DNA from: Phycisphaerae bacterium
GTDB lineage: Bacteria; Planctomycetota; Phycisphaerae; UBA1845; PWPN01
Direction of reading: 5' to 3'
Assembly: GCA_012729395.1 (NCBI GenBank)
Contig: JAAYDF010000097.1
Span: forward strand, 68,487 to 111,054
Length of the DNA stretch: 42,568 nucleotides
The position numbers and the translations under genes are program-made. Positions 12,657-40,788 of this stretch are shown here, in pieces. Below the pieces are notes generated by a model. The model did not search any database. It was not told the origin of the DNA and was given only the letters and a program-made list of their open reading frames with translations. How positions within the stretch are numbered: the stretch's first letter is position 1; the number at the start of each line of letters is the position of its first letter.

Positions 12657-12859
12657 TCTGACAAGGCGGCTCACGCCGCCCGCGGACCCATGGCACGTAT
12701 GTGATGACTGGGAGGCAGCCGGTGCAGACAGAAGGCTCGATTCGTTTGTCCAGGAAGAATCCGGTTCGACGATCCGCTTCGCCGCCGGTGGTACAAAGCG
12801 GGTTGGATGGGCGGCTGTGGCGTGCACGCGAACACTGCTCACAGAGCAGTGCCACACGA

Positions 12860-15800
12860 GTGCGTTGTGGCTTGCTGTTTCGCTTTGGTCGGGTTGGGCT
12901 GCTTGCCGGCTGTTTGCTGCTGACCTTGAGTGCTGCAACGTCGCTTGCTGATGGATCGGCTGATCCAGCCTGGGCACGCACGCGCCCGCGACTGGCCGAC
13001 GTGGTGGGCACGGCCTCGCTCGAAGAGGGCTTCAGGAACCCGCCGCGGACGTGCAGCAGCGTGCCGCTGTGGTCGTGGAATGGGCGACTCGATCCGGCCG
13101 AACTCCGCCGACAGATTGATGAGTTGGTCGACAAGGGCGTGTACGGCGCGTTCATGCACGCCCGCGACGGCCTGAACAACACCGAGACGCCGTACTTCTC
13201 CGACGGTTGGTGGGAGGCGGTCAGAGCCAGCGTGGAGCACGGGGAGAAGGTCGGCTTCGCGGCGTGGCTCTACGATGAGGACAAATGGCCCAGCGGGGCG
13301 GCCGGCGGACGCACACTCGCCGCCGACCCCGAGGGTAATACCCGCAAGCAACTGACCCGGACCGAGCTTCGCGTCACGGGGCCGCGGCAGGTCGAGATCC
13401 GCTTCCCCGGCGCGACCTACGTCGTGGCCGGCCGAGTGGTCGGCGACAAGACGCTGGCGGGCGAGACGCTGAGCGAGATCACCTCGTTGAACAATTCCGC
13501 CTCACCCTGGTCCTGCCCCGAGGGCGACTGGTTGATCGTCGCCTATACCATGGGCCCGGTCAAAAGGGCAGAAGGGGTCATCAACTACCTCAACCCAGAG
13601 ACGATCCGCACGTTCATGGATATTACCCATGAGGCCTATGCCGCTCGGGTCGGCGACCATTTCGGCCGAGCGGTCCCCGGTGTTTTCTTCGACGAGATCC
13701 ACAACAGCGGCGCCCAGCTTGTTTGGGCTGAGGGTTTCGCCGAACGCTTCCGCGCGATGAAAGGCTACGACCTCGTGCCGCTTCTGCCGGGGCTGGTGCT
13801 GGACGTCGGCCCGACGACTCCCAAGCTGCGCTGCGACTACTACGACGTCTACACGACGATTTACGAAGAGACCTGGTTCCAGCGGATCGCCGACTGGTGT
13901 GACCAGCACAACATGATGCTCACCGGGCACACCATCGAGGAGATCAACTCCTACCTGACGCAGGGCGACTACTTCCGCACGATGCGGCATCTGCACATTC
14001 CGGCCACGGACAACGAGGACTTCCGCTACACCTGGCCGCGGGTCATCGGAGCCTGGAAGCCCAAGCAGATTGCCAGCCTGTGTCATGTGTACGGCCGGCC
14101 GCTGGTCGGCGTCGAGGCGATGGGTGGGGCGGGATGGTCCTTCACGCTCGACAGCGCCCGCTACGGCTTCAATATGTTGGCCGCCTACGGCGTGAACTTC
14201 TTCATGCCGCATCTGTTCCATTATGCCCAGGACTCCCCGGCCAATGTAGACGACTGGCCGAACAGTTGGTTCCTGCATAACCCGTTCTGGAAGTACTACA
14301 AGACGTTCGCGGATCACGGCAGCCGGTTGACCTTCATGTTGGCCGGCACCGAGCATGTGGTCGATGTGGCCGTGCTCCTTCCAACGACCAACCTGTGGGC
14401 GGGTTACGGCGGCGGCACCACCGTGCAGACCGTTCAAACACTCGTCGCCGCCCACCGAAGCGCGGATGTGATCGATCCTGGCTCGCTGGTCCGGGCGAAG
14501 GTGATGGATGGGCATCTGTCCATCGCGGACATGCGTTACCGGGTGCTGGTGTTGCCCGGCGTGCGCTGCATGCGTCGCGACGTGGCCGCCCGGGTTCGTG
14601 AGTTCGTGGCCGGTGGCGGCATTCTCATCGTGCATGATCGTTGGCCGACCGACTCGATGGAGGCCGGCCGCGATGATCTGGAATTGGCGGTACTTGCCAC
14701 CGAAGCCGCTGCCAAGGGTGTGACCCTCTCCAAGTTGGGCGACACCGTCGGTTTGGTAGCCGCGGCTATCGAGCCCGACGTAACCATCAGCGGCGATCGT
14801 GCTGAGCACCTGCGTTACCACCACCTCCGCCGCGACGGCAAGGAGGTTTACTGGTTTGCCAACGGGGTGCGCGAGCCCGGCTGCTGGCGGGTCAGTCTGC
14901 GCTGCACGGGTTCGCCGGCGATCTGGCAGCCGGAGGATGCCTCCATCACCCCGGTGTCGGCACATGTGGTGCGCGATGGGCGTACGCAGTGCGATCTGCG
15001 GCTGGATGGCTGGCAAGGCTGTTTCCTGGTGATTGACCCGGGGACGCGGGCAGGCGAGGGCGGGGTGCTGCTCAATGCGACGAACCTTCGCGAACCGGTG
15101 GTGGGGCGGGACACTTCGGGGCAGGTCAGCGTGAGTGGGCTTCTTCCGCCGGACGCCGACCGGGCCGAGGCTCAGGCTTCGGTCTGCGCGGCCGGGACAG
15201 AGCGGACCGTGGTTGGTTCGAGCGAGGAGCTTCCACGGTTGGCGGGGATCGAGCTCGGTGGCGATTGGCGGATGTTGCCCGCGGGCGATCGACTTGATGA
15301 TGTCTGGACGGTGGATCTTGGGGAGGCGGAACTCGAGCTTCCGGTCATGCGTATGCAGTGGGAGGGCGAATCGGAAGGGGAGGCCCTCGGCTGGCACTTC
15401 CGAGCTCAGGACGACCGGCGATGGCGGCAGGTCAAAGTGCGTGACGCCCGGCAGCCTGAGGCCGGCGCCGATCGCTACCGCTCGCGATGGCAGGGGCGGT
15501 TCATTTCCTTCTACAACCACGCCGACTTCCGGGCGCCGTTCGGCGGCCAGGGCCTCCAGTGCAGAACGACCTTCACACTGACGACCAAGGTCAGTGTTCG
15601 CGGCTGGTTGGCGGTCATCTGCGAAAATCCCTTCGAGGTCATCGTCAACGGGCAATCCTACCCCGGCAAGGGGGCACGCTTGCCGCAACGGTTTGACCTT
15701 CGCCAGTTGCAGTCCGGCGAGAACACGATCACCATCGCCGCCGAGAACGCCCCGGCCGTGCTTGCCGAGGGGCAGATCTTCATCGACGGCGACACGGTGA

Positions 15801-16591
15801 TCCAGCTCTTTAGCGACTCAACCTGGGAGGCGACACTACCGGGCAAATCGTGGCAGCCGGCCTGGGAATACGTGGCGCCGCCCGAGCAACCGTACGGCGA
15901 GCCGACCTATCCGCAGGAAGTACCCATGCCGACGGTGGCGTGGTATCGGCAACCGTTACCACCGGGCAGCGTCGCGCTGCGCGTGCCGCGTGTCGATGGT
16001 GAATGGCGTCTCTGGGTAGATGGCAAAGCGGTTGAGCCTCGTGACGATTGGATGCCTCTGCCGGCGGGGGTGTCGGGTGAGGGCTTGGCCCTGCGCGTTG
16101 CGGCTGAGCCGGGACAGCGCGGTCTGATCGAGCCCCTGCGCGTGCGGTGCCGGCCCGCGGAGCGCCCGCTCGGCTGTTGGACCCGGCAGGGGCTCGATTG
16201 GTACAGCGGCCGGGTGCTCTACTCGCGCGAATTCGATCTGCCTGCCGAATATGCCCGCCCAGACGTTCGCCTGTCGCTGGAACTCGGACAGGTCAACTAC
16301 TGTGCGGAGATTTGGCTTAACGGCAAGCTGGTCGGTACGCGCGTCTGGCCGCCCTATGCCCTGGATGTCACCGGGCACGTCACCGTGGGCCAGAACCGGC
16401 TGGATGTCGTCGTCGCCAACCTGTTGGCCAATCGCATGCGCTGGGATATCTTCGATGAGGTCAAGGGCGTTCAGTTGAACCGCAAATGGCACGACGGCAA
16501 CCTGCGGCGGGATGGCTGGTGCTTCGAGTCCGGCCTGCTCGGCCCGGTCCGGCTGGTCCCCCTGCGGAAGACCACGGTGACGATGGAATGA
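12860..16591 (+). CDS. Secreted GH106-like alpha-L-rhamnosidase
   Basis: A large exported glycosidase related to GH106, a family of retained-fold alpha-L-rhamnosidases acting on plant and algal polysaccharides. From GTG 12860 the product is 1,243 residues. A signal peptide (VGLLAGCLLLTLSAATSLADG) comes first, then the TIM-barrel start VPLWSWNGRLDP (about 68-79) and GFAAWLYDEDKWPSGAAGG (131-149). FFDEIHNSG and TGHTIEEINSY are likely active-site blocks. A glutamine-amidotransferase-like beta/alpha segment and two galactose-binding-like beta sandwiches close the chain; the last contains INYCAEIWLNGK-like NYCAEIWLNGKLVGTRVW. The frame is open from GTG 12701, adding 53 arginine-rich residues, but no SD supports either start; I chose 12860 because it places the signal peptide at the N-terminus. 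Substrate is inferred from family. Confidence 0.82.
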   Translation: MRCGLLFRFGRVGLLAGCLLLTLSAATSLADGSADPAWARTRPRLADVVGTASLEEGFRNPPRTCSSVPLWSWNGRLDPAELRRQIDELVDKGVYGAFMHARDGLNNTETPYFSDGWWEAVRASVEHGEKVGFAAWLYDEDKWPSGAAGGRTLAADPEGNTRKQLTRTELRVTGPRQVEIRFPGATYVVAGRVVGDKTLAGETLSEITSLNNSASPWSCPEGDWLIVAYTMGPVKRAEGVINYLNPETIRTFMDITHEAYAARVGDHFGRAVPGVFFDEIHNSGAQLVWAEGFAERFRAMKGYDLVPLLPGLVLDVGPTTPKLRCDYYDVYTTIYEETWFQRIADWCDQHNMMLTGHTIEEINSYLTQGDYFRTMRHLHIPATDNEDFRYTWPRVIGAWKPKQIASLCHVYGRPLVGVEAMGGAGWSFTLDSARYGFNMLAAYGVNFFMPHLFHYAQDSPANVDDWPNSWFLHNPFWKYYKTFADHGSRLTFMLAGTEHVVDVAVLLPTTNLWAGYGGGTTVQTVQTLVAAHRSADVIDPGSLVRAKVMDGHLSIADMRYRVLVLPGVRCMRRDVAARVREFVAGGGILIVHDRWPTDSMEAGRDDLELAVLATEAAAKGVTLSKLGDTVGLVAAAIEPDVTISGDRAEHLRYHHLRRDGKEVYWFANGVREPGCWRVSLRCTGSPAIWQPEDASITPVSAHVVRDGRTQCDLRLDGWQGCFLVIDPGTRAGEGGVLLNATNLREPVVGRDTSGQVSVSGLLPPDADRAEAQASVCAAGTERTVVGSSEELPRLAGIELGGDWRMLPAGDRLDDVWTVDLGEAELELPVMRMQWEGESEGEALGWHFRAQDDRRWRQVKVRDARQPEAGADRYRSRWQGRFISFYNHADFRAPFGGQGLQCRTTFTLTTKVSVRGWLAVICENPFEVIVNGQSYPGKGARLPQRFDLRQLQSGENTITIAAENAPAVLAEGQIFIDGDTVIQLFSDSTWEATLPGKSWQPAWEYVAPPEQPYGEPTYPQEVPMPTVAWYRQPLPPGSVALRVPRVDGEWRLWVDGKAVEPRDDWMPLPAGVSGEGLALRVAAEPGQRGLIEPLRVRCRPAERPLGCWTRQGLDWYSGRVLYSREFDLPAEYARPDVRLSLELGQVNYCAEIWLNGKLVGTRVWPPYALDVTGHVTVGQNRLDVVVANLLANRMRWDIFDEVKGVQLNRKWHDGNLRRDGWCFESGLLGPVRLVPLRKTTVTME

Positions 16592-16816
16592 GGCCAGAGC
16601 GGAGACAGGGGGGGGCGGACAGGAGACAGGAACTGAGTACGTCCAACGGCGCGCGAGGCGGATCCTGAAACAGGCTTGCCGCTTCGCGGTGAACGCGAGC
16701 CGATCATGGAGAGACAGAGAATCGTCGGATACGACTATCGCTGGAAACCACGGACGTCAGGGACGCAAACGAAATGACCGCGGGTTATTCCGCGATTCAA
16801 TGAGGGATGATGAGTG

Positions 16817-18178
16817 ATGATGACTCACCGCACTCTACACCGGATCGCTATTGCCATGTCGGTTCTGTTGGCCGCCGGCGCTTCGAGCCTGCCTGCTGAG
16901 CAAGCGGCCGAGCCCAAGCCGCTCAAGGTGCTCATGATCGTCGGCGGGATCGCCCACGACTACGAAACGCTGCCGCCGAAGCTGGCCCGCGTGCTTGGCA
17001 AAGATGAGGATATGATCGTCGAGGTGACCGGCGACCTCGGCCGGCTGACCGATGAGCACCTCAGGCCTTTCGATGTGCTGGTATTCAACAATTGCCACGA
17101 CGCCGACCTCAGCGAGGATCAGCGGCAGGCGGTGCTGTCCGCCCTGCGGCGTAACACCGGCCTGGTCGCGGTGCATTGTGCTCTGTGGTCGTTCCAGAGC
17201 TGGCCCGAGTGGCGTAACATCGTCGGTGCCTTGGTGCTCGGGCATGATCCGTTTGCCTCGTTCGACGTTGTCGTTGTCGATCACGAGCATCCGATCAACA
17301 CCGACGTGCCCGACCGCTTCACCATCGCCGACGAGCCGTATCTGGTGACCGAGTGGGGCGGGAACAATCACGTGCTGCTGCGGACCGCCGCTCTGCACGG
17401 CGGCCGTGACAAGCCCGAGCCCATGGCCTGGACCACCCGCTATCACGGCAGCCGCGTTGTCTCGATCATGCCCGGCCACGACGAACAGGCCCAGGCGGCC
17501 CCCGCCTTTCAGACCTTGTTGGCCAATGGCATTCGCTGGGCCGGTCGGCGCCTCGGCCCCGCCACGCTGCTCAGCGAGGAGGAGCGGCAAGAAGGCTTCG
17601 TTCCCCTATTCGACAGCAAGACCCTGGCCAACTGGCGATTCGATCGCCGCTACTGGAAGACCCGCGACGGTCTGATTATCGGCAACACCCACCCGGATGG
17701 CCTCAAGAAGCACACCTATGCCATCACTGAGCAGGCCTTTGGCGACTTCATCCTCCGCTACAGCGTCAACCTGGTCAGCGGCAACAGCGGCGTCCAGTTC
17801 CGCAGCCTCGAATGGCCCGATTACGAGGTGGCCGGCTACCAGGCCGACGTGGTCCTGCCCTTTGGCTGGGGTAACCTGCACGAGCAAAATGGCCGTCGCA
17901 AGCTCGTCGACGGCTGGACGGGTAAGGCCGACCGCAACGTCCAACCCGGCTGGAACGACATGGAGGTCATCGCCCAAGGCCCACGCGTGATCCTGAAGAC
18001 GAATGGCGTTGTCACCGCCGACTGGACCGAGACTGATGCCGACGTGCCCAAGGCCGGCATCGTTGCTCTCCAGCTCCACGGCGGCGACCCCATGGAAGTG
18101 CAGTACACCAACATCCGGATCAAGCCCATCCCGTCGGCCACGCAGCCGGCTACCGCACAGAGCCCGGGGCAAGAGTAG
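16817..18178 (+). CDS. Secreted ThuA-like / DUF1080 two-domain protein
   Basis: About 453 residues: a signal peptide (AIAMSVLLAAGASSLPA), a ThuA-like glutamine-amidotransferase-fold domain (about 37-245) and a C-terminal DUF1080 concanavalin-like beta sandwich (about 260-440). ThuA landmarks are VLMIVGGIAHDYE, FDVLVFNNCHD and GLVAVHCALWSF. DUF1080 landmarks are GFVPLFDSKTLANWRF, SGVQFRS and YEVAGYQAD. DUF1080 (3-keto-disaccharide hydrolase family) proteins act on modified disaccharides; ThuA was linked to trehalose utilisation. This fusion is frequent in planctomycetes. The start is ATG 16817 or 16820; GAGGG lies about ten bases upstream. It follows the GH106-like gene after 225 bp containing only G-rich sequence. 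Confidence 0.85.
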   Translation: MMTHRTLHRIAIAMSVLLAAGASSLPAEQAAEPKPLKVLMIVGGIAHDYETLPPKLARVLGKDEDMIVEVTGDLGRLTDEHLRPFDVLVFNNCHDADLSEDQRQAVLSALRRNTGLVAVHCALWSFQSWPEWRNIVGALVLGHDPFASFDVVVVDHEHPINTDVPDRFTIADEPYLVTEWGGNNHVLLRTAALHGGRDKPEPMAWTTRYHGSRVVSIMPGHDEQAQAAPAFQTLLANGIRWAGRRLGPATLLSEEERQEGFVPLFDSKTLANWRFDRRYWKTRDGLIIGNTHPDGLKKHTYAITEQAFGDFILRYSVNLVSGNSGVQFRSLEWPDYEVAGYQADVVLPFGWGNLHEQNGRRKLVDGWTGKADRNVQPGWNDMEVIAQGPRVILKTNGVVTADWTETDADVPKAGIVALQLHGGDPMEVQYTNIRIKPIPSATQPATAQSPGQE

Positions 18179-18345
18179 CCACCCGCAGGGGAGGCCATGG
18201 TACAATGGTGGGATCCCCGGCGCCAGGTACAGGTCGGCGGGATTCTCGATAGGGATTCTTCGCTGGAATGGGGCGTTGGAGATGCCCATGGTGTCTGTGA
18301 TCGTCTTCCCGCTGTTGGGAGATCAGGATGGGAAGGAGAAGCCTC

Positions 18346-19101
18346 ATGTCTATCGCGAGGAAGAGCTGGTCGTGGATTGGGTTTCATGGCAGTTGGCTTG
18401 TCGCCGTCCTGGTGCTCGCGTCGAGCAGCTATGCGGCATGGTATGACCAGGATCCAGCAGTTGTTTCGGGTATCCCAGACATCAAGCTGACCGAGGGGGC
18501 GAAGCAGGCCGGCGCCGAGTGTTCCGAGGTGGCCTGCGCTAACGTGATCAAGTACTTCGATCAGCATGGCTACCCGGATCTCATCGCCGCGGGGACGTCC
18601 GACGAGGATGTCTTGATCGAGATGGCCGATGAAAATGAGTACAACTTCGGCACGCCGCTGGGGCCATTGGTGGCTCTGAACAAGTACATCAAGGACAAAG
18701 GGTACAAGAACAAGCTTGCCGCCCACAACGTCGATCTCACCTGGGACAAGATCGTTGAGGAGATGAAGAAGGGGCAGTTGCTCGTGCTCTCGTTCGATTT
18801 CGGCGGACAAGGCAGGCATGAGGTCACCATCGGCGGCTGGGACAACACGCCCGCGAGGCAACTGGGTATCCAGGATGTCAACAGCCCACCGCCGAGCAGC
18901 GGCGGCTCGAGCTATACCGGCACGGTGGGCACCACGGATTTCTACACGGTGACCATGAAGCCGGACGGCTCGTTCACCTTCAAGTACAAGGACGGCGCGG
19001 AGGCCGTGCCTGAGAAAATCACCGCCGTGTCGCCTGTTCCCGAGCCGGCAAGCCTGCTCCTGCTGGGCTTGGGCAGCCTGCTCGTGCTGCGCCGCCGATA
19101 G
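18346..19101 (+). CDS. PEP-CTERM protein with C39-like cysteine peptidase fold
   Basis: A 251-residue exported protein. A signal peptide (WLVAVLVLASSSYA, ending near 30) is followed by a domain with a papain-like arrangement. Gln54 lies five residues before Cys59 (KQAGAECSEVACANVIKYF), His158 is in RHEVTIGGWD and Asp177 in GIQDVNS. This spacing fits the Gln-Cys-His-Asp layout of C39-like peptidases. The tail VPEPASLLLLGLGSLLVLRRR is a textbook PEP-CTERM signal for exosortase sorting. ATG 18346 has GGAAGGAG seven bases upstream, so the in-frame ATG at 18328 is rejected. Its target is unknown; it sits inside the glycosidase block. The catalytic assignment rests on motif spacing only, and it could be a non-catalytic relative. 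Confidence 0.75.
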   Translation: MSIARKSWSWIGFHGSWLVAVLVLASSSYAAWYDQDPAVVSGIPDIKLTEGAKQAGAECSEVACANVIKYFDQHGYPDLIAAGTSDEDVLIEMADENEYNFGTPLGPLVALNKYIKDKGYKNKLAAHNVDLTWDKIVEEMKKGQLLVLSFDFGGQGRHEVTIGGWDNTPARQLGIQDVNSPPPSSGGSSYTGTVGTTDFYTVTMKPDGSFTFKYKDGAEAVPEKITAVSPVPEPASLLLLGLGSLLVLRRR

Positions 19102-19422
19102 AAGTGCCTTGTCGCAGGTATCTGAGCTTCGAACGGCTCTCGTACTCGGCATATGGCGGGGGGCCGGGTATGACGAGGCGACGCCGTCGTCCGCGAGGTT
19201 GCAGCGGTCAGGCGGAGTGACAAGACGCTGCGTATTCATGCGTCAAAGCGTTCACTGAGCGAAAGGTATTTTGGGGTGTCGGCCTTACGGGTTGTGCGGC
19301 CGCCAATGCTCGGCGTCCACTGTGTGCAGGGGCATCGCTTGGTGCTTCTGTTCGCTTCGATCACTCCGCTGATGTTGTGCCGTGGTCATCATTGGCTGAG
19401 GTGATAGAGAAAGGTTCATACT
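19102..19422. other. Non-coding stretch between PEP-CTERM and WbsX-like genes
   Basis: About 320 bases with no supported gene. A short inverted repeat (GGCGACGCCGTCGTCC region near 19180) is visible, but no terminator-like T run and no clear promoter. A 5' leader for the next gene probably lies in the last 100 bases. Confidence 0.4.
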
Positions 19423-20784
19423 GTGAATACGATCGAATTCATGAGAAACGCTCAGCAGTACCGTCGTGTCCTATCGGCTTGGCGAGACCGAAGCCGACGG
19501 CTTGCCTTCCTTCTCGCGGTCTCGGCACTGGCCGGCTGCACGCTTCACGCGGACGACTCGGACACGGCCGCCTCACGAGATGCCCTCGGGCGGCCCGCCA
19601 CGGCCGTGGATGACATCACCGTCGCCGCTTACTACTACCCTTGCACCCACCCCGATCCGCGATGGGACAAGGCCAAGTATCCGGGTTTCACCGAGTGGGA
19701 TCTCATCCGAAAGGCCAAGCCGCGTTTCCCCGGTCACAAGCAGCCGCGGGTCCCGCTCTGGGGCTACACCGACGAATCCGATCCCAAGGTAATGGCCCAG
19801 AAGATCGACGCGGCCGCCGACCACGGAGTGGATGCGTTCATCTTCGACTGGTATTACTACGACGACGGCCCGTATCTTCAGGGAGCGCTGGAACGAGGCT
19901 TTCTCAACGCGTCCAACAACCAGCGGATCAAGTTCGGCCTGATGTGGGCCAACCATGATTGGTACGACATTCAAGGGTACAACCCGGCCGAACCTATCAA
20001 GCTGCTCTACCCCGGCAAGGTGACCCCGCAGACCTGGGAGACGATCACGGACCTCGTCATCGCACGCTACTTCAAGCATCCCAGCTACTGGAAAATCGAC
20101 GGCAAGCCCTACTTCTCGGTCTACGACATGGGCGTGTTTCTCGACAGCTTCGGGTCGGTCGAGGCGGCGCGGACCGCGGTGGATCGATTTCGGGCGAAGG
20201 TTGAGGCTGCCGGTTTCCCCGGCCTGCATTTGAACGCGATTCTGTGGGGGCAGCCGAATCTGCCCGGCGGCACAACGCCGGCTAATTGGCCCCGGCTTTG
20301 CCTGGATCTGGCTCTCGACAGCCTCACCGGCTACACCTGGGTTCATCACGGAGCGCTCAACTATGGGACGTTTCCCGTGTCCGACTACGTGGAGGGGCGC
20401 AATACCTACCTCAAGTTCTGGGAGAAGGCGTTGGGCGATTTCCCGATACCTTACTTCCCGAACACCACAATCAACTGGGACAACTCACCCCGGGCGCATC
20501 CCGACGCCCACTGGGACAGGCCCGCGGCTCATGTGGTCAATCCCGTGATGATGGGCAACACGCCGGCCGCCTTCGAGGAGGCCTGTCGGATCATTCGGGA
20601 CCGGCTGCTCGCCGCCGCCACGCAGCCTAAGGTGGTGACGGTCAACGCCTGGAACGAATGGCCCGAGGGCAGCGTGCTGGAGCCGGAGCTGGAGCACGGC
20701 TACGGTTACCTTGAGGCGATCCGGGCGGTCTTCGGAACCGCTTCCGCCAAGCCGAGGTCCGCCCATCGGGCTCGCCCCCGATAG
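19423..20784 (+). CDS. WbsX/GH99-like lipoprotein
   Basis: A 453-residue exported protein. A basic n-region (about 26 residues) precedes LAFLLAVSALAGC, which ends in a plausible lipobox (ALAGC), so a lipid-anchored form is likely. The rest is the WbsX/GH99-like TIM barrel: VAAYYYPCTHPDPRWD near the start, DAFIFDWYYYDDGPY, GLMWANHDWYD, and the C-terminal signature VTVNAWNEWPEGSVLEPELE. GH99 members are endo-alpha-mannanases or mannosidases; the WbsX branch is often annotated as a glycosyltransferase, but its fold is that of a glycosidase. The start is GTG 19423 with AGAAAGG upstream. It points toward a convergent GH78 gene 46 bp away, in keeping with glycan breakdown. Substrate unknown. Confidence 0.8.
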   Translation: MNTIEFMRNAQQYRRVLSAWRDRSRRLAFLLAVSALAGCTLHADDSDTAASRDALGRPATAVDDITVAAYYYPCTHPDPRWDKAKYPGFTEWDLIRKAKPRFPGHKQPRVPLWGYTDESDPKVMAQKIDAAADHGVDAFIFDWYYYDDGPYLQGALERGFLNASNNQRIKFGLMWANHDWYDIQGYNPAEPIKLLYPGKVTPQTWETITDLVIARYFKHPSYWKIDGKPYFSVYDMGVFLDSFGSVEAARTAVDRFRAKVEAAGFPGLHLNAILWGQPNLPGGTTPANWPRLCLDLALDSLTGYTWVHHGALNYGTFPVSDYVEGRNTYLKFWEKALGDFPIPYFPNTTINWDNSPRAHPDAHWDRPAAHVVNPVMMGNTPAAFEEACRIIRDRLLAAATQPKVVTVNAWNEWPEGSVLEPELEHGYGYLEAIRAVFGTASAKPRSAHRARPR

Positions 20785-20830
20785 AACAAGACTCGCACGA
20801 GTCGTGGCTGCGTCGGCATCGCGATGGGGC

Positions 20831-23635
20831 TCACTCTGCCGGTAGACGCGATTCGAACACAAACCGGCCCGCACCAAGCAGAAAACTGACCTGCCCTTGT
20901 TGTTCGCGGGCCTCAGTGACGCCTTCAACCTGCGCCAGCGGTGTTCCCTGCTCGGTCACATCCGCCAATTGTCGAGCGGGGATGGATACCGTGGCGGTTG
21001 TGTTCGCGGGCACGCTTACCTGCAGCGTCAGCTTGTTACCCCGGCGCTCCCAGTTGCTTTCGATCGGGCCATACATCGAGCGATACCGGCTTCGAACGTA
21101 GGTCAGGTCACCCACCAGGCCCGGGCGAATGGCGAAGTGCTTGAAGCCGGGAGCCTGCTCATCGTATTGGATTCCTCCCAGGCCCTGGATGAACCACGCT
21201 CCGATCGAGACCAGCGTGTTGTGGATGTGCGAGTGGTCGCCATCCCACTGCTCCCATATCGTGGTGGCCCCGTTCTTGAGCATGTAGCCCCAACTCGGAT
21301 AGGTCTCCTTGCTGGTGATTTCGTAGGCCAGGTCGTTTCTGCCCGTGCTGGTGAGCAGCTTGAGCAGGTAGTATGTGCCGTGCATGCCCGTGTTGAGATG
21401 CCCCTTGCACTGGACCCGGATGTCATGTTCAAGACTCGCCATCACGCGGGCTCGCAGCGGCTCGGGTGTGACGTCGAACAGCAGAGGCATGGCCAGATAG
21501 GGCTGCTCGCCGTTCGCGTAGGTTGCACCATCGTCGTTGAGGAACCGCTGGTGCAAGATCGCGGCAAGCTCGTCCGCCCGCTTCTGGTAGGCTTGGGCCT
21601 CGTCGCGTTTTCCCAACAGAGCGGCCGTCTTCGCGGCGATCCGAAGGCTGTACGCCATGTGACAGTTGTTGAAGAAGAGCGTCGATCGCTCGTCGACGCG
21701 GTTGCCTGCTTGATCGCGTCCGGGCGGCACCCAGTCGCCGAGGAAGTTCCATTCACTGGCTGGACAGCCCATGCCGACGTAGTGCTGAAGCAGGCCGTCC
21801 TTGACATGTGTTTCGAGGAAAGCCAGCCATTGGCGCATCGTCGGATACATCTGCTCGAGGATGCGCTGATCGCCGTATTGCACATAGACCTGCCACGGCA
21901 AGGTGACCACGATCCCGCCCCATGCGGGGCCGCCGCCCGCCGGGCCGGGGTGCGGCGAGGTGTGGGGCACATCTCCGTTGTCGGCTTGGTCCGCACGCCA
22001 GTCGGCAAGCCATTTGGTGAAGAACGCTCCGAGATCACAGTTCGTCATCCCCGTTTCCAGCGACGCCCCCGAGTCGCCCCCATACCCAAGCCGCTCGCGG
22101 GTCGGACAGTCGACGACGTACCCGCCTAGACTCAGGCAGCGATAGGTCCAGACCGCCGTGTCGTAGATGCGGTTCAGCAGATCGCTCGAACACTCAAACG
22201 CGGCCGCGGGCTTGTAGCCGGTGTGAATCATATACCCCAGAATCCCCGCGGGTTCCGGCTTGGCCTGGAGCCCTGTGATTTTCACCCAGCGAAACGCGTG
22301 GTAGTTGAACCGATTTCGGAAACGCTCCTCCCCATGCCCGCGCATGATGTACACGTCGCGCTGGCCATAAGTTTGAAGCTTCCCGTCGTCGAATCGCTTG
22401 TCCGCGTACTCGAGCAAGACTTCCTGTCCGGCCTGCCCGGACGGAAACCGGATATCAAGCCAGCCCGAGAAGTTGCGCCCCATGTCGATCAGAATTGAAC
22501 CGTCCTCAAGCTGGCCGACCGATGAGGGACGGATTGTCTCAAACACGCGGTTGGATTCAAGGCACTGCGCGGCGAAGGTCTGCGTGTGGGGTGTGTGAAC
22601 GCTGGCCGACTTCCACGCAGAGTCATCGAAGTCAGCAGCGGCCCAGTCCAAGACCTCCTGCCCGGCGTCGTATCGCTCGCCGCCATAGTCGCCCGTGTGT
22701 CCCTTCCCGATCGGGGTGATTGGGCTGGGGTGGACCTTCCACGAGCCGTCCGTGACGAGGCGCTGGGGCGTGCCCGCCGAGTCTTGCCACTCGAATTGGG
22801 CGCGAATGACGGGACCCTCGCCGGTCGCCTCGGCGAGCAACCGGCTTTCCCATCCTCGTCCCAGCCAAAGCGATACGCAGTTCGATCCGCTGGTCAGGTA
22901 GCTGGTGATGTCGTGGGTGATGTAGAGGCTTCTCTTGGCATAGGCGCTGACCAGCGGCGAGAGCACATCGTCGCCGACCTTGCGACCATTGACGTACAGT
23001 TCGTAGTAGCCGATCGCGTGTACGAAAGCCACGGCCCCTTCCGGCTTGCCGTCAATGGTGAAGGTCTTGCGGAGCCAGGGCAAGCTACCGGCGTTCTCCT
23101 TGAACCAGTCGCAGCCAATCCATTGTGCCGTCCAGTCTTCCGGTTCCAGGAGGCCCATGGTCCATGTCCCCGTGTCGCTCCATGCCGAGGCCTCGCCGTG
23201 GTTGTCCCACACCCGGACTTTCCAGCAGCATCGCATACGCGACCGCATCGGCGCCCCGGCATACGCGACCTGTATCGACTGATCGGACTCGACCTTGCCG
23301 CTATCCCACAGATCCGCTTGGCCCGGCAGCAGCTTCGCCTCGCTGGTAGCCACGACGATCTGATACGCCTGTTGCTTCCAGCCGCGAGCCTCGGCTTCGA
23401 TGATCCAGCTCAGACGCGGCCGACGCACATCGATCCCAAGCGGATTCGTCAGGTACTCACAACGTAGTGCGGTCACGCTGGCGTGTTTCTCGGCCATCAG
23501 CGTATCTCCGAACAGTGCGGTCAATGCCAAAGCGAAGATGAGACAGAGCGGGCTCGACATATCCACCCTTGCGGGAGCCGGCATGTGGGGCATGAGATTC
23601 GTGGTCGAAAGGATTGTACCTGCATTCTTGATCAC
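20831..23635 (-). CDS. GH78 alpha-L-rhamnosidase 1
   Basis: Inverting glycosidase releasing terminal alpha-L-rhamnose. The 934 residues have a signal peptide (LCLIFALALTALFG, 30-43) after a 26-residue n-region, then fibronectin-like and beta-sandwich domains (LRCEYLTNPLGIDVRRPRLSW). The (alpha/alpha)6 catalytic barrel holds DCPTRERLGYGGD (509-521), the GH78 acid motif, with Tyr where Trp is usual, and WEQWDGDHSHIHNT near 820 carrying the likely base Glu. A beta-sandwich tail closes the chain. GTG 23635 is chosen because AAGGAG lies seven bases upstream; the internal ATG 23560 would leave a shorter leader but has a poorer SD. It is convergent with the WbsX-like gene and 257 bp downstream of topA. 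Confidence 0.93.
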   Translation of the reverse strand: MIKNAGTILSTTNLMPHMPAPARVDMSSPLCLIFALALTALFGDTLMAEKHASVTALRCEYLTNPLGIDVRRPRLSWIIEAEARGWKQQAYQIVVATSEAKLLPGQADLWDSGKVESDQSIQVAYAGAPMRSRMRCCWKVRVWDNHGEASAWSDTGTWTMGLLEPEDWTAQWIGCDWFKENAGSLPWLRKTFTIDGKPEGAVAFVHAIGYYELYVNGRKVGDDVLSPLVSAYAKRSLYITHDITSYLTSGSNCVSLWLGRGWESRLLAEATGEGPVIRAQFEWQDSAGTPQRLVTDGSWKVHPSPITPIGKGHTGDYGGERYDAGQEVLDWAAADFDDSAWKSASVHTPHTQTFAAQCLESNRVFETIRPSSVGQLEDGSILIDMGRNFSGWLDIRFPSGQAGQEVLLEYADKRFDDGKLQTYGQRDVYIMRGHGEERFRNRFNYHAFRWVKITGLQAKPEPAGILGYMIHTGYKPAAAFECSSDLLNRIYDTAVWTYRCLSLGGYVVDCPTRERLGYGGDSGASLETGMTNCDLGAFFTKWLADWRADQADNGDVPHTSPHPGPAGGGPAWGGIVVTLPWQVYVQYGDQRILEQMYPTMRQWLAFLETHVKDGLLQHYVGMGCPASEWNFLGDWVPPGRDQAGNRVDERSTLFFNNCHMAYSLRIAAKTAALLGKRDEAQAYQKRADELAAILHQRFLNDDGATYANGEQPYLAMPLLFDVTPEPLRARVMASLEHDIRVQCKGHLNTGMHGTYYLLKLLTSTGRNDLAYEITSKETYPSWGYMLKNGATTIWEQWDGDHSHIHNTLVSIGAWFIQGLGGIQYDEQAPGFKHFAIRPGLVGDLTYVRSRYRSMYGPIESNWERRGNKLTLQVSVPANTTATVSIPARQLADVTEQGTPLAQVEGVTEAREQQGQVSFLLGAGRFVFESRLPAE

Positions 23636-27022: not shown

Positions 27023-29035
27023 ATGATGAAGTTTTTCCGTAAACACATGAATGAAATGCTGGTCGTTTTCATGGCCGCATTGCTGGTTATCTGGCTGGGC
27101 GGCGATGCTTTGCAGTATTTCCTCCAGTATGAGCGAGGCTTGGACAATCAGGAACGGGCGGTGATCTTCGGGGAGCGGATCACGCTGGCGGAGATGAACC
27201 CATCCTTTCAGGATATCAACATTCTGACCCGGCTGGGGCTGAATTGGCAGATGGTGTGGATTGGGCCGCTGGTGTCAGTAGTTGGCTCGGACATGATGAC
27301 CCTGCAGCAGTATGCCGGGCAGTTGGGATTGGACAGACTTGACGAATACGACTGGTATATGCTGGACATGGAGGCGCGTCGGAGCGGGCGCGTGGTGTCG
27401 CGGCAGGCCCTGGATCGATTCAAGGCGGAGACGCGGATTGGCGGACAACAACTGACGGCGGTGCGCGATCAGTTCAGCGTTTCCCTGGAGCGGATTGACC
27501 AAGCGATCCAGTCTTATGTTCGGATTCTGGACATGGTGGACACGGCCAGCCGTGGAGTGAAGCCCAGCGAGGCGGACATTCGGGAGTTTGTGAGGCAAAG
27601 TCAGGAGAAGGTGCGAATCAACGCCGTGGTTCTGAGCGGCGCGAAGTTTTTGGACACTTCGTACGAGCCGACGGAGCAGGAACTGATCGAGCAGTTCGAG
27701 TCGGGCAAGGATAAGGATCCTTCACCGTGGACCATCGCGGAGTTCGGCTACCGCCAACCGGAGAAAGTGGCGACCGAGTACATTCGGGTCAGCGCCGAGG
27801 CTTTGCTTCGTCAGCAGGAGACCCCGCGTGACGACGACCTGTATGAGTATTGGCAGGCTCGTCGCGACGAGTTTCTGAAGCCGGTCGGCCCGCCGGCGAC
27901 GTCGCCCGAGGGGACGCCACCAGAACAGGAGAAGCCGAAGCCCTACGAAACTTTCAGTGAAGCGAAGAGCAAGGTGATCGAGCGGTTACAGGAGGAGCGG
28001 GCCAAGGCGGAGGCCCTGCGGATTGGTCGGGATCTCATCGCTCAGTTGGGTCGTCCGTGGGCGGCGGTCCCGGCTTCGCAGCCTGATGGCTACAAGGCCC
28101 CGCCGGAGACCGAAACACAACCGGATGTCTACACGAATCTTCTGGCGGCGTACGATCGGCGTTATGCGGCGGTGCTAAGCCACGGCGAGATCGAGCTCAC
28201 AGATGTTCGCGGGTTGGCGAGCAATCAGGACTTCAGTCAGGCGATGGCGTTCCAGGGCACACAACGGCCTGTGCCGTTTGGCCAAGCCGCGTTCTACGTG
28301 GCGGGTCTGGAGGCACAGCGGGACGCCAATGCGGATCACGCTCGGCTGTTCCGGAGTCTGTATGAGACCTGCGCGGAGCCGTTCGTCAACGATTCCGGCG
28401 ATGTTTTTGTGTTCCGGACGACTGCCATTCAACCGAAACAGGCTCCGGCCTCGTGGGAGGCTCTGCGCGAGCAGCTGGTGACCGATGTGCGGAGCCGACG
28501 GGCGTACGAGGAGGCGGGTCGGCAGGCGCAAAGCTTGGCGGAGCAGGCTGGCGAGGGCGGACTGCGGGCGGTGCTCGACGCGAACAGCGAGTTGCTGGCC
28601 AAGCTGGGGCAGGAAGCCTTCAAGCAGCCCGCTCCGTTCAGCCGGATTCGCAGCATCGCGTATGGCGGGCAAATGCGAGTCATACCCAGCTACATCGCCG
28701 GCGTCGGTGGCGGCGGGGAGTTGCTCGAAATGTGTTTTGATCTGGCGAAGCATGTGACGACGCAACCGGCTCAGCGGGTCAAGGTGCACGAGATACCGAG
28801 TCGGCGCGAGCACTTGGTGATTGAGTGGGTGGAGACTTTGCCGGTCACGCAGACGGAATACGATCAGGAACGCGGAAACGCGTTCAATCACGTTCTCACT
28901 CAACGGCGAGTGGCCTTCCTGGGGAACTGGTTTGACCCGCAGGAGATTCGGCGGCGTGTGGGCTGGGAGGATGTTGAGCCATCGGGCAAACCGGCTCCAG
29001 AGGAAGATGGTAAGGGAGCACCCCCTGAGGCATAA
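27023..29035 (+). CDS. SurA/PpiD-like membrane-anchored chaperone
   Basis: A 670-residue protein with one N-terminal membrane span (MLVVFMAALLVIWLGGDAL, about 12-30) and a long periplasmic part. The opening residues (MMKFFRKHMNE) and the layout match PpiD: N-terminal anchor, SurA-N-like helical chaperone domain (about 45-190), and following regions with the SurA-type block EADIREFVRQSQEKVRI. A linker rich in Pro/Glu lies near 300-315, and a second helical block follows (FSEAKSKVIERLQEERAKAEA). I cannot see the conserved parvulin active-site residues, so isomerase activity is doubtful. Family placement is by pattern recall. The role would be folding of secreted proteins, which this organism exports in quantity. 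Confidence 0.6.
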   Translation: MMKFFRKHMNEMLVVFMAALLVIWLGGDALQYFLQYERGLDNQERAVIFGERITLAEMNPSFQDINILTRLGLNWQMVWIGPLVSVVGSDMMTLQQYAGQLGLDRLDEYDWYMLDMEARRSGRVVSRQALDRFKAETRIGGQQLTAVRDQFSVSLERIDQAIQSYVRILDMVDTASRGVKPSEADIREFVRQSQEKVRINAVVLSGAKFLDTSYEPTEQELIEQFESGKDKDPSPWTIAEFGYRQPEKVATEYIRVSAEALLRQQETPRDDDLYEYWQARRDEFLKPVGPPATSPEGTPPEQEKPKPYETFSEAKSKVIERLQEERAKAEALRIGRDLIAQLGRPWAAVPASQPDGYKAPPETETQPDVYTNLLAAYDRRYAAVLSHGEIELTDVRGLASNQDFSQAMAFQGTQRPVPFGQAAFYVAGLEAQRDANADHARLFRSLYETCAEPFVNDSGDVFVFRTTAIQPKQAPASWEALREQLVTDVRSRRAYEEAGRQAQSLAEQAGEGGLRAVLDANSELLAKLGQEAFKQPAPFSRIRSIAYGGQMRVIPSYIAGVGGGGELLEMCFDLAKHVTTQPAQRVKVHEIPSRREHLVIEWVETLPVTQTEYDQERGNAFNHVLTQRRVAFLGNWFDPQEIRRRVGWEDVEPSGKPAPEEDGKGAPPEA

Positions 29036-37581: not shown

Positions 37582-40500
37582 TCAGGGCCACGGCGTGGCA
37601 AACACGTACTGGCCCGAGTCCACCGCATAGGTGCATCGTCCGCCTTCGGCCTTGATGAAACGAACGCCGGGGCTCTCGGCCGCCGACCGGCCGCTTTCGG
37701 TGACCTTGCTCGGGTCGGAGGCCGGCAGGAAAACCGTCGCGGTGCTGTTGGCGGGGATGGTGACGGTCAGGGTCAACGCACCGTCGGCCAGTTGCCAGTG
37801 GCTGGCGACCTTGCCGCGGACGGTGTCGATCTCGCCCTTGGCCCAGGTCAGATCGCCGAGGATCTCCGGGCGAATGAGAATGTGCTCGAAGGCCGGCTGC
37901 TCAGGATCGACCCGGATGCCGGCCAGCGCCTGGTAGAACCACGTGCAGATATCGCCGAAGAAGATGTGGTTGAGCGACGCCTCGCCCTTCCAGTCTTCCC
38001 ACAAGGTGGTCGCACCCTGCTGGATCCAGTGGCCCCAACTCGGGTAGGTCGTCTTGGCCGCGAGGGTGTAGGCGACATCGGGTCGGCCGTAACGGGTCAG
38101 GGCGTGCGGGATGTAGATGGAGCCGAGCACGCCGCTGTTGATGTGGCCGTCGCATTTCTCGATGTTGGCGACCAAATTGGCAACGACGCGGTCCACCTGG
38201 TCGGGCTCGACGAGGCCGTGGTAGAGGGCACAGGCCAGGGCGGTCTGGCTGCCGGTCGCGTACTGGCCGGTCCGCCGATCGTAGAACTTCGCGTTGAACG
38301 CCTTGCGGATCCGCCCGGCCAAGTCGGCGTAACGCTTGGCGTCGTCCAGCTTGCCGAGCAGGGTGGCCGTCTGGGAGACCAGGAGGGCCCCACGGTAGTA
38401 GTAACCGGTCGACGTCACCGCCTCGGGTGTTTTCTGGTCGATGGCTACCCAATCGCCCAGGCCGAAGGAGACGATGTGCCCCTCTGCCCGGCTGGTCATG
38501 TAATCGACGTAACGCTTGAAACCGGCGTAGTGCCGCTCCAAGATGCCGCGGTCGCCGTGGTAGAGATAGAGCTGCCAGGGAATGGTCAGGTAGGCGATGT
38601 CCCACGCGGGCCCGTTGCCCCAATGGTAGCCCCACCCGCCGGTGGGTACGATGCCCGGCAGTTGTCCGTCGTCCTTCATCGCGTCGCGCATGTCGTCGAT
38701 CCACTTGGCGTACGCGGCGGCGTTGTCGAAACTGTACATCGCCTGCTCGGAGGCCATGTGGGCGTCACCGGTCCAGCCGTTTTTCTCGCGATGCGGGCAG
38801 TCGGTCGGATAGCCGTGGAAGTTGCCCCAATACGACCACCGGGCGGCCCGCTGGATGCGGCCGAAGAGGGTATTGGAACACTCGAAGTTGCCGACCTGCG
38901 GGCAGGCGGTGTGAGCGAAGCGGCCCTGGAGGTTGTCGAGCGCGGGTTTGCCGGGCCAGCCGCTGACTTCGACGTACTGGAAGCCGTGGTAGACGAAGCG
39001 GGGCTCCCAGGTCTCGGCGCCGTCGCCTTTGAGGATGTAGGTGTCGGTCTGGAAGGGGGCCTGCAGGCTGTGGGCGGCGATCAGATCCTGATTGACGGTG
39101 CCGTCGGCATTGAGGCGTTCGCCGTACTTGAGGGTAACGCGCGTGCCGGCTGGCCCCTTGACGGTCAAGCGAGCCCAGCCGGCCAGGTTCTGCCCCAGGT
39201 CGAAGACGAAAATGCCCGGCTGCGGTTCCGACATGGCCACAGGCTGGATGGTCTGCGTGACCTGGATGGCGGGCATGGTCTGGGGCACAAGCCGACCGGC
39301 CGGTCCGCGGACCACGTGCGGTGGCTGCCAGTCGGCGTCGTCGCAGTCAGGTGAGGCCCAGCCGTTTCGTTCGAGGCGGGCGTCGTATGCTTCGCCGTTG
39401 CGGATGGCGTCGAAGAGGATCGGGCCGGGTGCGGTTTTCCAGGTCGGGTCGGTGTGGATAGTCTCTTGCGAGCCGTCCTCGAACGTCAGGTGCAGTTGCA
39501 TTCGCAGGCAGGGCACGTCGCGCCACGGGGCTTTGTCGAAGAGCCAGACCGCCCGCGTGTGCATGTTGTACCAGCCGTTGCCGAGCATGACGCCGATGGC
39601 GTTCTTGCCCGGCTTGATCTGCTCGGTGACGTCGTGGGTAACATACAAGGCCCGGTGGTCGTAGTTGGTGAACGCGGGGTCGAGGACATGGTCGCCGATG
39701 CGTTCGTTGTTGAGGTACAGCTCGTGGTAGCCCAGACCGCAGATGTACGCCTGGGCGGCCTTGACCGGCTTGGCTACCGTGAAGCTCTTGCGGAACAGCG
39801 GCGCGGAGCGGGGCTCTGGCAGGAGGTAGAGTTCGCCCCAGGGCGCGCCGCCGAAGGGGCCGAGGTCTCGGCACGCCTGCCAGCCGGTCGCGTCGAAGCC
39901 GGGATCGGTCCAGCCGGGTTTGTCCTCGTCGCTGCTCTGCCATGCGGTATCGGTTGAAAGCACGAGGGGTTCGCCCTCTACGAAATCCACGCGGAGTTGG
40001 GCGATCAGGCCGGCCGCGTCGCCGTAATTGCGGATCACGACGGCTAGGGCGTTGGTGCCGGGCTGGAGGTGGGCGGTCAGGTCGTACACACGCAGCATCT
40101 GCCAGTAGTCGTTGGTGCCGACCTGCTGGCCGTTGATGTGCAGCACGTAATGGTCGTCGCCGGTGAGCAGGAGCTGGGCCCGGGTGATGGTTCGGTCGGC
40201 CGGCAGCTCAAAGGTCCGGCGGAAGAACCGCGACTGATCCTTGGGTGGGGCGGCATCGGGGTTGGCTTCGGGCCACCAGATCCAGCGCATGCGGGCCGTG
40301 TCGAACGGGGCGAGCATCTGGTGGCGATCGGGGTGGGCCGCCAGCCACTGGCCCCGCCAGTCCTCGGGCTTCAGCAGGCCCATCTCCCACCAAGCGGGCT
40401 CGCTATAGGGCGAGGGCTCACCGTCGCGGCCCCAGACCCGCACCTTCCAGTAGACCCGCTGCCCCGACGCCAGCGGCTGTCCGCCGTAGAGTACGTGCAC

Positions 40501-40788
40501 CGATTCATGGGAATCGACCTTGCCGCTGTCCCACAGGTCGCCGCGATCGGCGGCCAATACTTGCGGGTCCGTGGCGGCAAGGATCTGATAGGCCGTTTGC
40601 CGCTGCCCGCGTACCGACGATTGCGGCACCCAGCCCAGACGCGGAGACATGGCGTCGATACCCAGCGGGTTGACCAGGTACTCGCACCGCAGTCGCTCGA
40701 CGGTCAAGGCAGTATTTGATGATTCCGCATTGGCAGGAGTGATTGTGGCCATGGTAAGAAGAAGCATCATTAGGGCAAGACGCATCAT
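37582..40788 (-). CDS. GH78 alpha-L-rhamnosidase 2, with extra beta-sandwich
   Basis: The 1,068 residues start with a short signal peptide (ALMMLLLTMATITPANA), then the N-terminal fibronectin-like domain (LRCEYLVNPLGIDAMSPRLGW). Two successive galactose-binding-like sandwiches follow: FFRRTFELPADRT to about 265, and LFRKSFTVAKPVKAAQAYICG to about 420. The catalytic barrel holds DCPHREKNGWTGD (663-675, general acid) and TTLWEDWKGEASLNH near 945 with the base Glu. The first sandwich is lacking in GH78-1 and largely explains the 134-residue excess. ATG 40788 has GAAAGG about six bases upstream. A promoter at 40843-40870 precedes it and manA follows by 21 bp. Confidence 0.93.
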   Translation of the reverse strand: MMRLALMMLLLTMATITPANAESSNTALTVERLRCEYLVNPLGIDAMSPRLGWVPQSSVRGQRQTAYQILAATDPQVLAADRGDLWDSGKVDSHESVHVLYGGQPLASGQRVYWKVRVWGRDGEPSPYSEPAWWEMGLLKPEDWRGQWLAAHPDRHQMLAPFDTARMRWIWWPEANPDAAPPKDQSRFFRRTFELPADRTITRAQLLLTGDDHYVLHINGQQVGTNDYWQMLRVYDLTAHLQPGTNALAVVIRNYGDAAGLIAQLRVDFVEGEPLVLSTDTAWQSSDEDKPGWTDPGFDATGWQACRDLGPFGGAPWGELYLLPEPRSAPLFRKSFTVAKPVKAAQAYICGLGYHELYLNNERIGDHVLDPAFTNYDHRALYVTHDVTEQIKPGKNAIGVMLGNGWYNMHTRAVWLFDKAPWRDVPCLRMQLHLTFEDGSQETIHTDPTWKTAPGPILFDAIRNGEAYDARLERNGWASPDCDDADWQPPHVVRGPAGRLVPQTMPAIQVTQTIQPVAMSEPQPGIFVFDLGQNLAGWARLTVKGPAGTRVTLKYGERLNADGTVNQDLIAAHSLQAPFQTDTYILKGDGAETWEPRFVYHGFQYVEVSGWPGKPALDNLQGRFAHTACPQVGNFECSNTLFGRIQRAARWSYWGNFHGYPTDCPHREKNGWTGDAHMASEQAMYSFDNAAAYAKWIDDMRDAMKDDGQLPGIVPTGGWGYHWGNGPAWDIAYLTIPWQLYLYHGDRGILERHYAGFKRYVDYMTSRAEGHIVSFGLGDWVAIDQKTPEAVTSTGYYYRGALLVSQTATLLGKLDDAKRYADLAGRIRKAFNAKFYDRRTGQYATGSQTALACALYHGLVEPDQVDRVVANLVANIEKCDGHINSGVLGSIYIPHALTRYGRPDVAYTLAAKTTYPSWGHWIQQGATTLWEDWKGEASLNHIFFGDICTWFYQALAGIRVDPEQPAFEHILIRPEILGDLTWAKGEIDTVRGKVASHWQLADGALTLTVTIPANSTATVFLPASDPSKVTESGRSAAESPGVRFIKAEGGRCTYAVDSGQYVFATPWP

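Follow-up and report, generated by a model that had tools for sequence, protein, structure and literature searches.

Single-domain peptidases related to the C39 domain of transporters make up the Peptidase_C39_2 family (PMC10318531), and the PEP-CTERM sorting tail has been defined with Planctomycetes listed among its carriers (PMC1569441). In the GlyGly-CTERM/rhombosortase system secreted proteases carry a tripartite C-terminal sorting tail, and in some cargo families the tail changes between members, being GlyGly-CTERM, LPXTG or PEP-CTERM (PMC3237569). Secreted proteases that bear a membrane-sorting tail are therefore already known. Our literature search found no description that pairs PEP-CTERM with a C39 or papain-like peptidase; this pairing recurs in genomes and is, as far as the literature was searched, undescribed. 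Here we analyse a protein of 251 residues encoded in a 42,568-nucleotide stretch of DNA from a Phycisphaerae bacterium, referred to throughout as the window (Table 1). The protein is a divergent member of this known kind.

With PEP-CTERM/exosortase cargo (PMC1569441) the protein shares a signal-peptide-like start, the PEP motif, a hydrophobic helix, a basic end and an exosortase in the genome, and it differs from the cargo found described in the literature in bearing a papain-like domain. It resembles GlyGly-CTERM/rhombosortase cargo as a predicted secreted protease with a tripartite C-terminal sorting tail, but the tail and the sorting enzyme are different ones, and the protein is papain-like where the rhombosortase cargo comprises serine and metallo-proteases.

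Table 1. Features of the gene, its product and the surrounding locus, in window coordinates (aa, residues counted from the ATG at 18346)
Feature	Position	Strand	Basis
CDS, 251 aa, predicted exported papain-like protein with PEP-CTERM tail	18346..19101	+	ORF translation, Pfam, profiles, AlphaFold2 model
Shine-Dalgarno-like AAGGAG, seven bases before ATG 18346	18333..18338	+	sequence
Signal-peptide-like N terminus, aa 1-30: basic n-region, hydrophobic VAVLVLA, S-Y-A before A31	18346..18435	+	reading of sequence
Papain-like domain, about aa 43-216, C-terminal edge uncertain	18472..18993	+	profiles, alignment, AlphaFold2 model, VIA-align
Gln54 codon, proposed oxyanion-hole residue, position not conserved	18505..18507	+	sequence, alignment
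Cys59 codon, predicted nucleophile	18520..18522	+	sequence, A5 alignment, model (N terminus of long helix)
His158 codon, predicted general base	18817..18819	+	sequence, A5 alignment, model (start of strand)
Asp177 codon, predicted third catalytic residue	18874..18876	+	model (end of next strand), profile alignments
PEP-CTERM sorting tail, aa 230-251, VPEPASLLLLGLGSLLVLRRR	19033..19098	+	Pfam, TIGR02595
Alpha-L-rhamnoside locus: GH106, two GH78, ThuA + 3-keto-disaccharide hydrolase, WbsX/GH99-like	12701-23635 and 37582-40788		

The initial annotation of this DNA had given the open reading frame and the residue numbers Gln54, Cys59, His158 and Asp177 correctly, counting from the ATG at 18346. 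To judge from the sequence, this ATG, with the AAGGAG that precedes it, is the better start; an alternative in-frame ATG at 18328, which would add six residues, lacks such a site; a sigma-70 promoter scan returned no match. The N terminus, judged by eye, looks typical for a signal peptide. At the other end of the protein, PEP-CTERM (PF07589) scores 26 bits against a cut-off of 20.7, and TIGR02595 scores 21.2 bits against a cut-off of 16. Two exosortase genes are present in the same genome (PF09721, E 2.5e-59 and 4.4e-49) together with about 49 PEP-CTERM places above cut-off, so a cognate system exists for the tail, and the earlier proposal of an exported protein with a PEP-CTERM anchor agrees with all of these observations. 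The window holds a second PEP-CTERM ORF at 1690-2145 on the minus strand, with 151 residues from a TTG, the C terminus LPEPAALMLFCLGGALTSCRRRRHASR and a Pfam PEP-CTERM score of 22 bits, above cut-off.

Taken directly, Pfam points to Peptidase_C39_2 (PF13529) in the protein at a sub-threshold level, over residues 55-168 (E 0.1; 13.6 bits, under the cut-off of 24). Searches with the single sequence retrieve weak relatives only, and the genuine ones have in common a Cys box, as a rule CxPT[AS], that is followed further along by a His strand, GGH[WYF]VT. Five tblastn matches (L010, L011, L012, L020 and L031) were judged to be chance on reading the sequences, and a sixth (L025) from its alignment. 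A profile built from eight homologue domains (A1) has matches in 82 of 397 genomes from the query's class. Further homologue profiles, from which the query was left out, were scored against the query, 2,000 shuffled copies of it and the other ORFs of the window. The profile of all homologues finds the query at E 4e-20 (69 bits), and those of the L014 and L027 groups at E 5e-10 and E 9e-12, respectively, while the best of the shuffled copies reaches 6-10 bits, depending on the profile; the query, although absent from these profiles, had partly helped to recruit the homologues, and the test is thus not fully independent. The A5 alignment comprises the query and 36 homologues (37 rows) from planctomycetes, Desulfobacterales, Polyangia, Verrucomicrobia, Fibrobacter, Cyanobacteria and others, and its group without the query recovers the query at only E 0.007, which places the query remote from this group. 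Matches among PDB sequences to beta-propeller designs, at about residues 187-219, were of the repeat type and were rejected; there was no other PDB sequence match.

Cys59 and His158 are invariant in all 37 rows of the A5 alignment, across several phyla, and the poor conservation of this pair that the initial annotation had named as evidence against its own reading is not seen. Among 15 PEP-tailed proteins conservation is complete for Cys59 and at least 90% for His158, and the three exceptions to His158 in the automatic table (L073, L075 and L076) prove, on reading by eye, to have a His in the strand where it is expected. In the profile of all homologues Asp177 falls on the Asp of the family DP motif, and in that of the L027 group it falls on the corresponding Asp. 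Because MAFFT in A5 places S180 rather than Asp177 in the family Asp column, Asp177 is likely, not certainly, the counterpart of the family Asp. The order Cys, His, then Asp/Asn of clan CA is present in the query (C59, H158 and D177). The Gln before the Cys stands at -5 in the query, whereas homologue groups have it at -5, at -6 or not at all, and the Cys box reads C-S-E-V-A instead of the usual C-[GA]-P-T-[AS]. Three homologues (L048, L054 and L061) have a close ECGPTSAANSL box; in L048 a second Cys lies five residues past the first, as does C64 in the query.

AlphaFold2 run on the A5 alignment gives a model with a pTM of 0.71 and a mean pLDDT of 72, with values of about 80-92 across most of model residues 11-110 (aa 41-140). 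The same program run on the single sequence is uninformative (pLDDT 36), and the model therefore depends on the alignment. A long helix (model 29-43) begins with Cys59, strand 127-136 has His158 at its start and strand 142-147 has Asp177 at its end, as in papain-like enzymes. Foldseek with this model ranks IdeS-type proteases first at E 0.004, with no match at E < 0.001. VIA-align lists 50 PDB entries, every one of them a papain-like enzyme (Z 8.7-11.1), and they include IdeS/IdeC, TDE_0362, phytochelatin synthase (Z 10.8), streptopain, staphopain, pseudomurein endoisopeptidase (Z 9.4), papain-type enzymes, ComA (Z 8.9) and PCAT1 (Z 8.7). The papain-like core whose presence the initial annotation had left to structure prediction is thus found in the model, and the 251-residue protein is very probably a papain-like cysteine peptidase in both fold and function.

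How well the label C39 fits is a separate matter. The query has the order and spacing of Cys box, His strand and Asp of Peptidase_C39_2, and several of its PEP-tailed homologues exceed the cut-off of that family, but the query itself falls below it and is without the CxPT[AS] motif. It has the papain-like fold and the Cys/His/Asp set of the ABC-transporter C39 domains (PF03412), but unlike these it is predicted to be exported and has no transporter fusion (no ABC-transporter domain was found in the protein by the Pfam scan), and there is no reason to expect cleavage of a double-glycine leader. IdeS/IdeC, streptopain and staphopain, which are exported and thiol-dependent, as predicted for the query, are among the best structural matches listed (Z 9.9-11.1), but at 7-16% identity, and they lack an exosortase tail. 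To our knowledge, the substrates of these enzymes are unrelated. On the model, the structure would be at least as near to IdeS, streptopain and staphopain as to C39, and the name suits the protein loosely. Of the papain-like C39 site originally proposed, the Cys/His pair stands and the Asp is likely, while Gln54 proves unfixed in position and the family assignment stays below cut-off.

We consider it probable that the gene encodes an exported, exosortase-processed papain-like thiol hydrolase, most plausibly a peptidase. The protein would be exported via Sec and stay anchored in the inner membrane through its C-terminal helix, where one of the two exosortases of the genome would cut and sort it at the PEP motif. 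Outside the cytoplasm, the papain-like domain would hydrolyse a peptide or other amide bond, with Cys59 acting as the nucleophile and His158, oriented by Asp177, as the base. Counting against the peptidase reading are the sub-cut-off family match, the CSEVA box, the unfixed Gln54, the alignment dependence of the model and Foldseek values above 0.001. A papain-like thiol enzyme other than a general peptidase, i.e. an amidase, a transpeptidase, or a transglutaminase-like or acyl-transfer enzyme with peptidoglycan-like, surface-glycoprotein or small-molecule amides as targets, is a less likely identity that deserves some weight, as phytochelatin synthase and pseudomurein endoisopeptidase have the same fold and one homologue weakly matches BtrH_N, an acyltransferase domain. 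The nearest sequence families are nevertheless peptidases, with Peptidase_C39_2 above cut-off in several PEP-tailed homologues and Peptidase_C10 weak, and there is no pointer to any specific other chemistry.

The query, on a long branch of the tree and with no close relative found, may have drifted in activity. Close orthologues were absent from the 13 genomes of its family, from 392 genomes of the phylum searched with the single sequence, and from a single-protein scan of genomic contigs. No PEP-tailed paralogue was found in the same genome, whose three PF13529 places (two clearly above cut-off, the third only with frame neighbours included) have no notable pairwise similarity to the query. 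The branch length and missing orthologues, with the atypical Cys box and the unfixed Gln, would also suit a decayed relative, an inactive papain-like scaffold that binds a surface ligand; we hold this to be improbable, as Cys59, His158 and Asp177 are all retained, which drift would not favour. A phage or viral origin was rejected, two scans of viral contigs having yielded no relative. By pairwise score the papain-like domain closest to the query is that of L014 and L015, frames of more than 2,100 residues in which it lies within a large multidomain exported protein.

The probable exosortase-processed hydrolase is not alone in its architecture, and the view that the combination is unusual is not supported: at least 14 further C39-like homologues from the class (L027, L053, L054, L069 and L071-L080) also end in a PEP-CTERM-like tail. 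L053 is above the Pfam cut-off of Peptidase_C39_2 and above that of PEP-CTERM, L027 and L074 exceed the former with a tail slightly short of the latter, and the tail of L054 is a PGA variant. Other homologues have dockerin-like repeats at the end, an IPTM-like anchor or no tail. On a quick tree the tail requires seven changes, at least three of them forced by strongly supported branches, and PEP-CTERM-like tails have therefore been gained or lost repeatedly. In eight Verrucomicrobiota genomes reached through loci, C39-like and PEP-CTERM matches were separate, with no protein confirmed to have both. One papain-like module paired repeatedly with PEP-CTERM, dockerin-like and other tails implies that the part that differs between lineages is the tail rather than the enzyme. 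In planctomycetes, where most exosortase cargo is uncharacterised, the gene offers a class of surface-sorted thiol hydrolases that can be tested. It is a distant speculation that such proteins are a recurrent exosortase cargo class in planctomycetes of the Phycisphaerae type and act on other surface proteins sorted by exosortase, maturing them or turning them over, which, if true, would add a second proteolytic step downstream of exosortase.

The gene stands in a neighbourhood of L-rhamnoside-use genes, with GH106, two GH78, a ThuA/3-keto-disaccharide hydrolase protein, a WbsX/GH99-like protein, an FGGY kinase and a class II aldolase around it. Glycosidases of the window were found near homologues in none of 20 loci (up to 20 kb each, E 1e-5), and the position of the gene among them is for this reason probably incidental. 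The role within a glycosidase block put forward in the initial annotation, in which the protein trims co-secreted rhamnosidases or matrix proteins of its locus, draws on these neighbours but is a guess that we regard as very unlikely, given their absence from the homologue loci and the gaps of about 170 and 320 bases on either side of the gene. Apart from this gene the locus is ordinary. A 670-residue ORF without a Pfam match, at 27023-29035 on the plus strand of the window, resembles by eye a membrane-anchored chaperone of the SurA/PpiD type.
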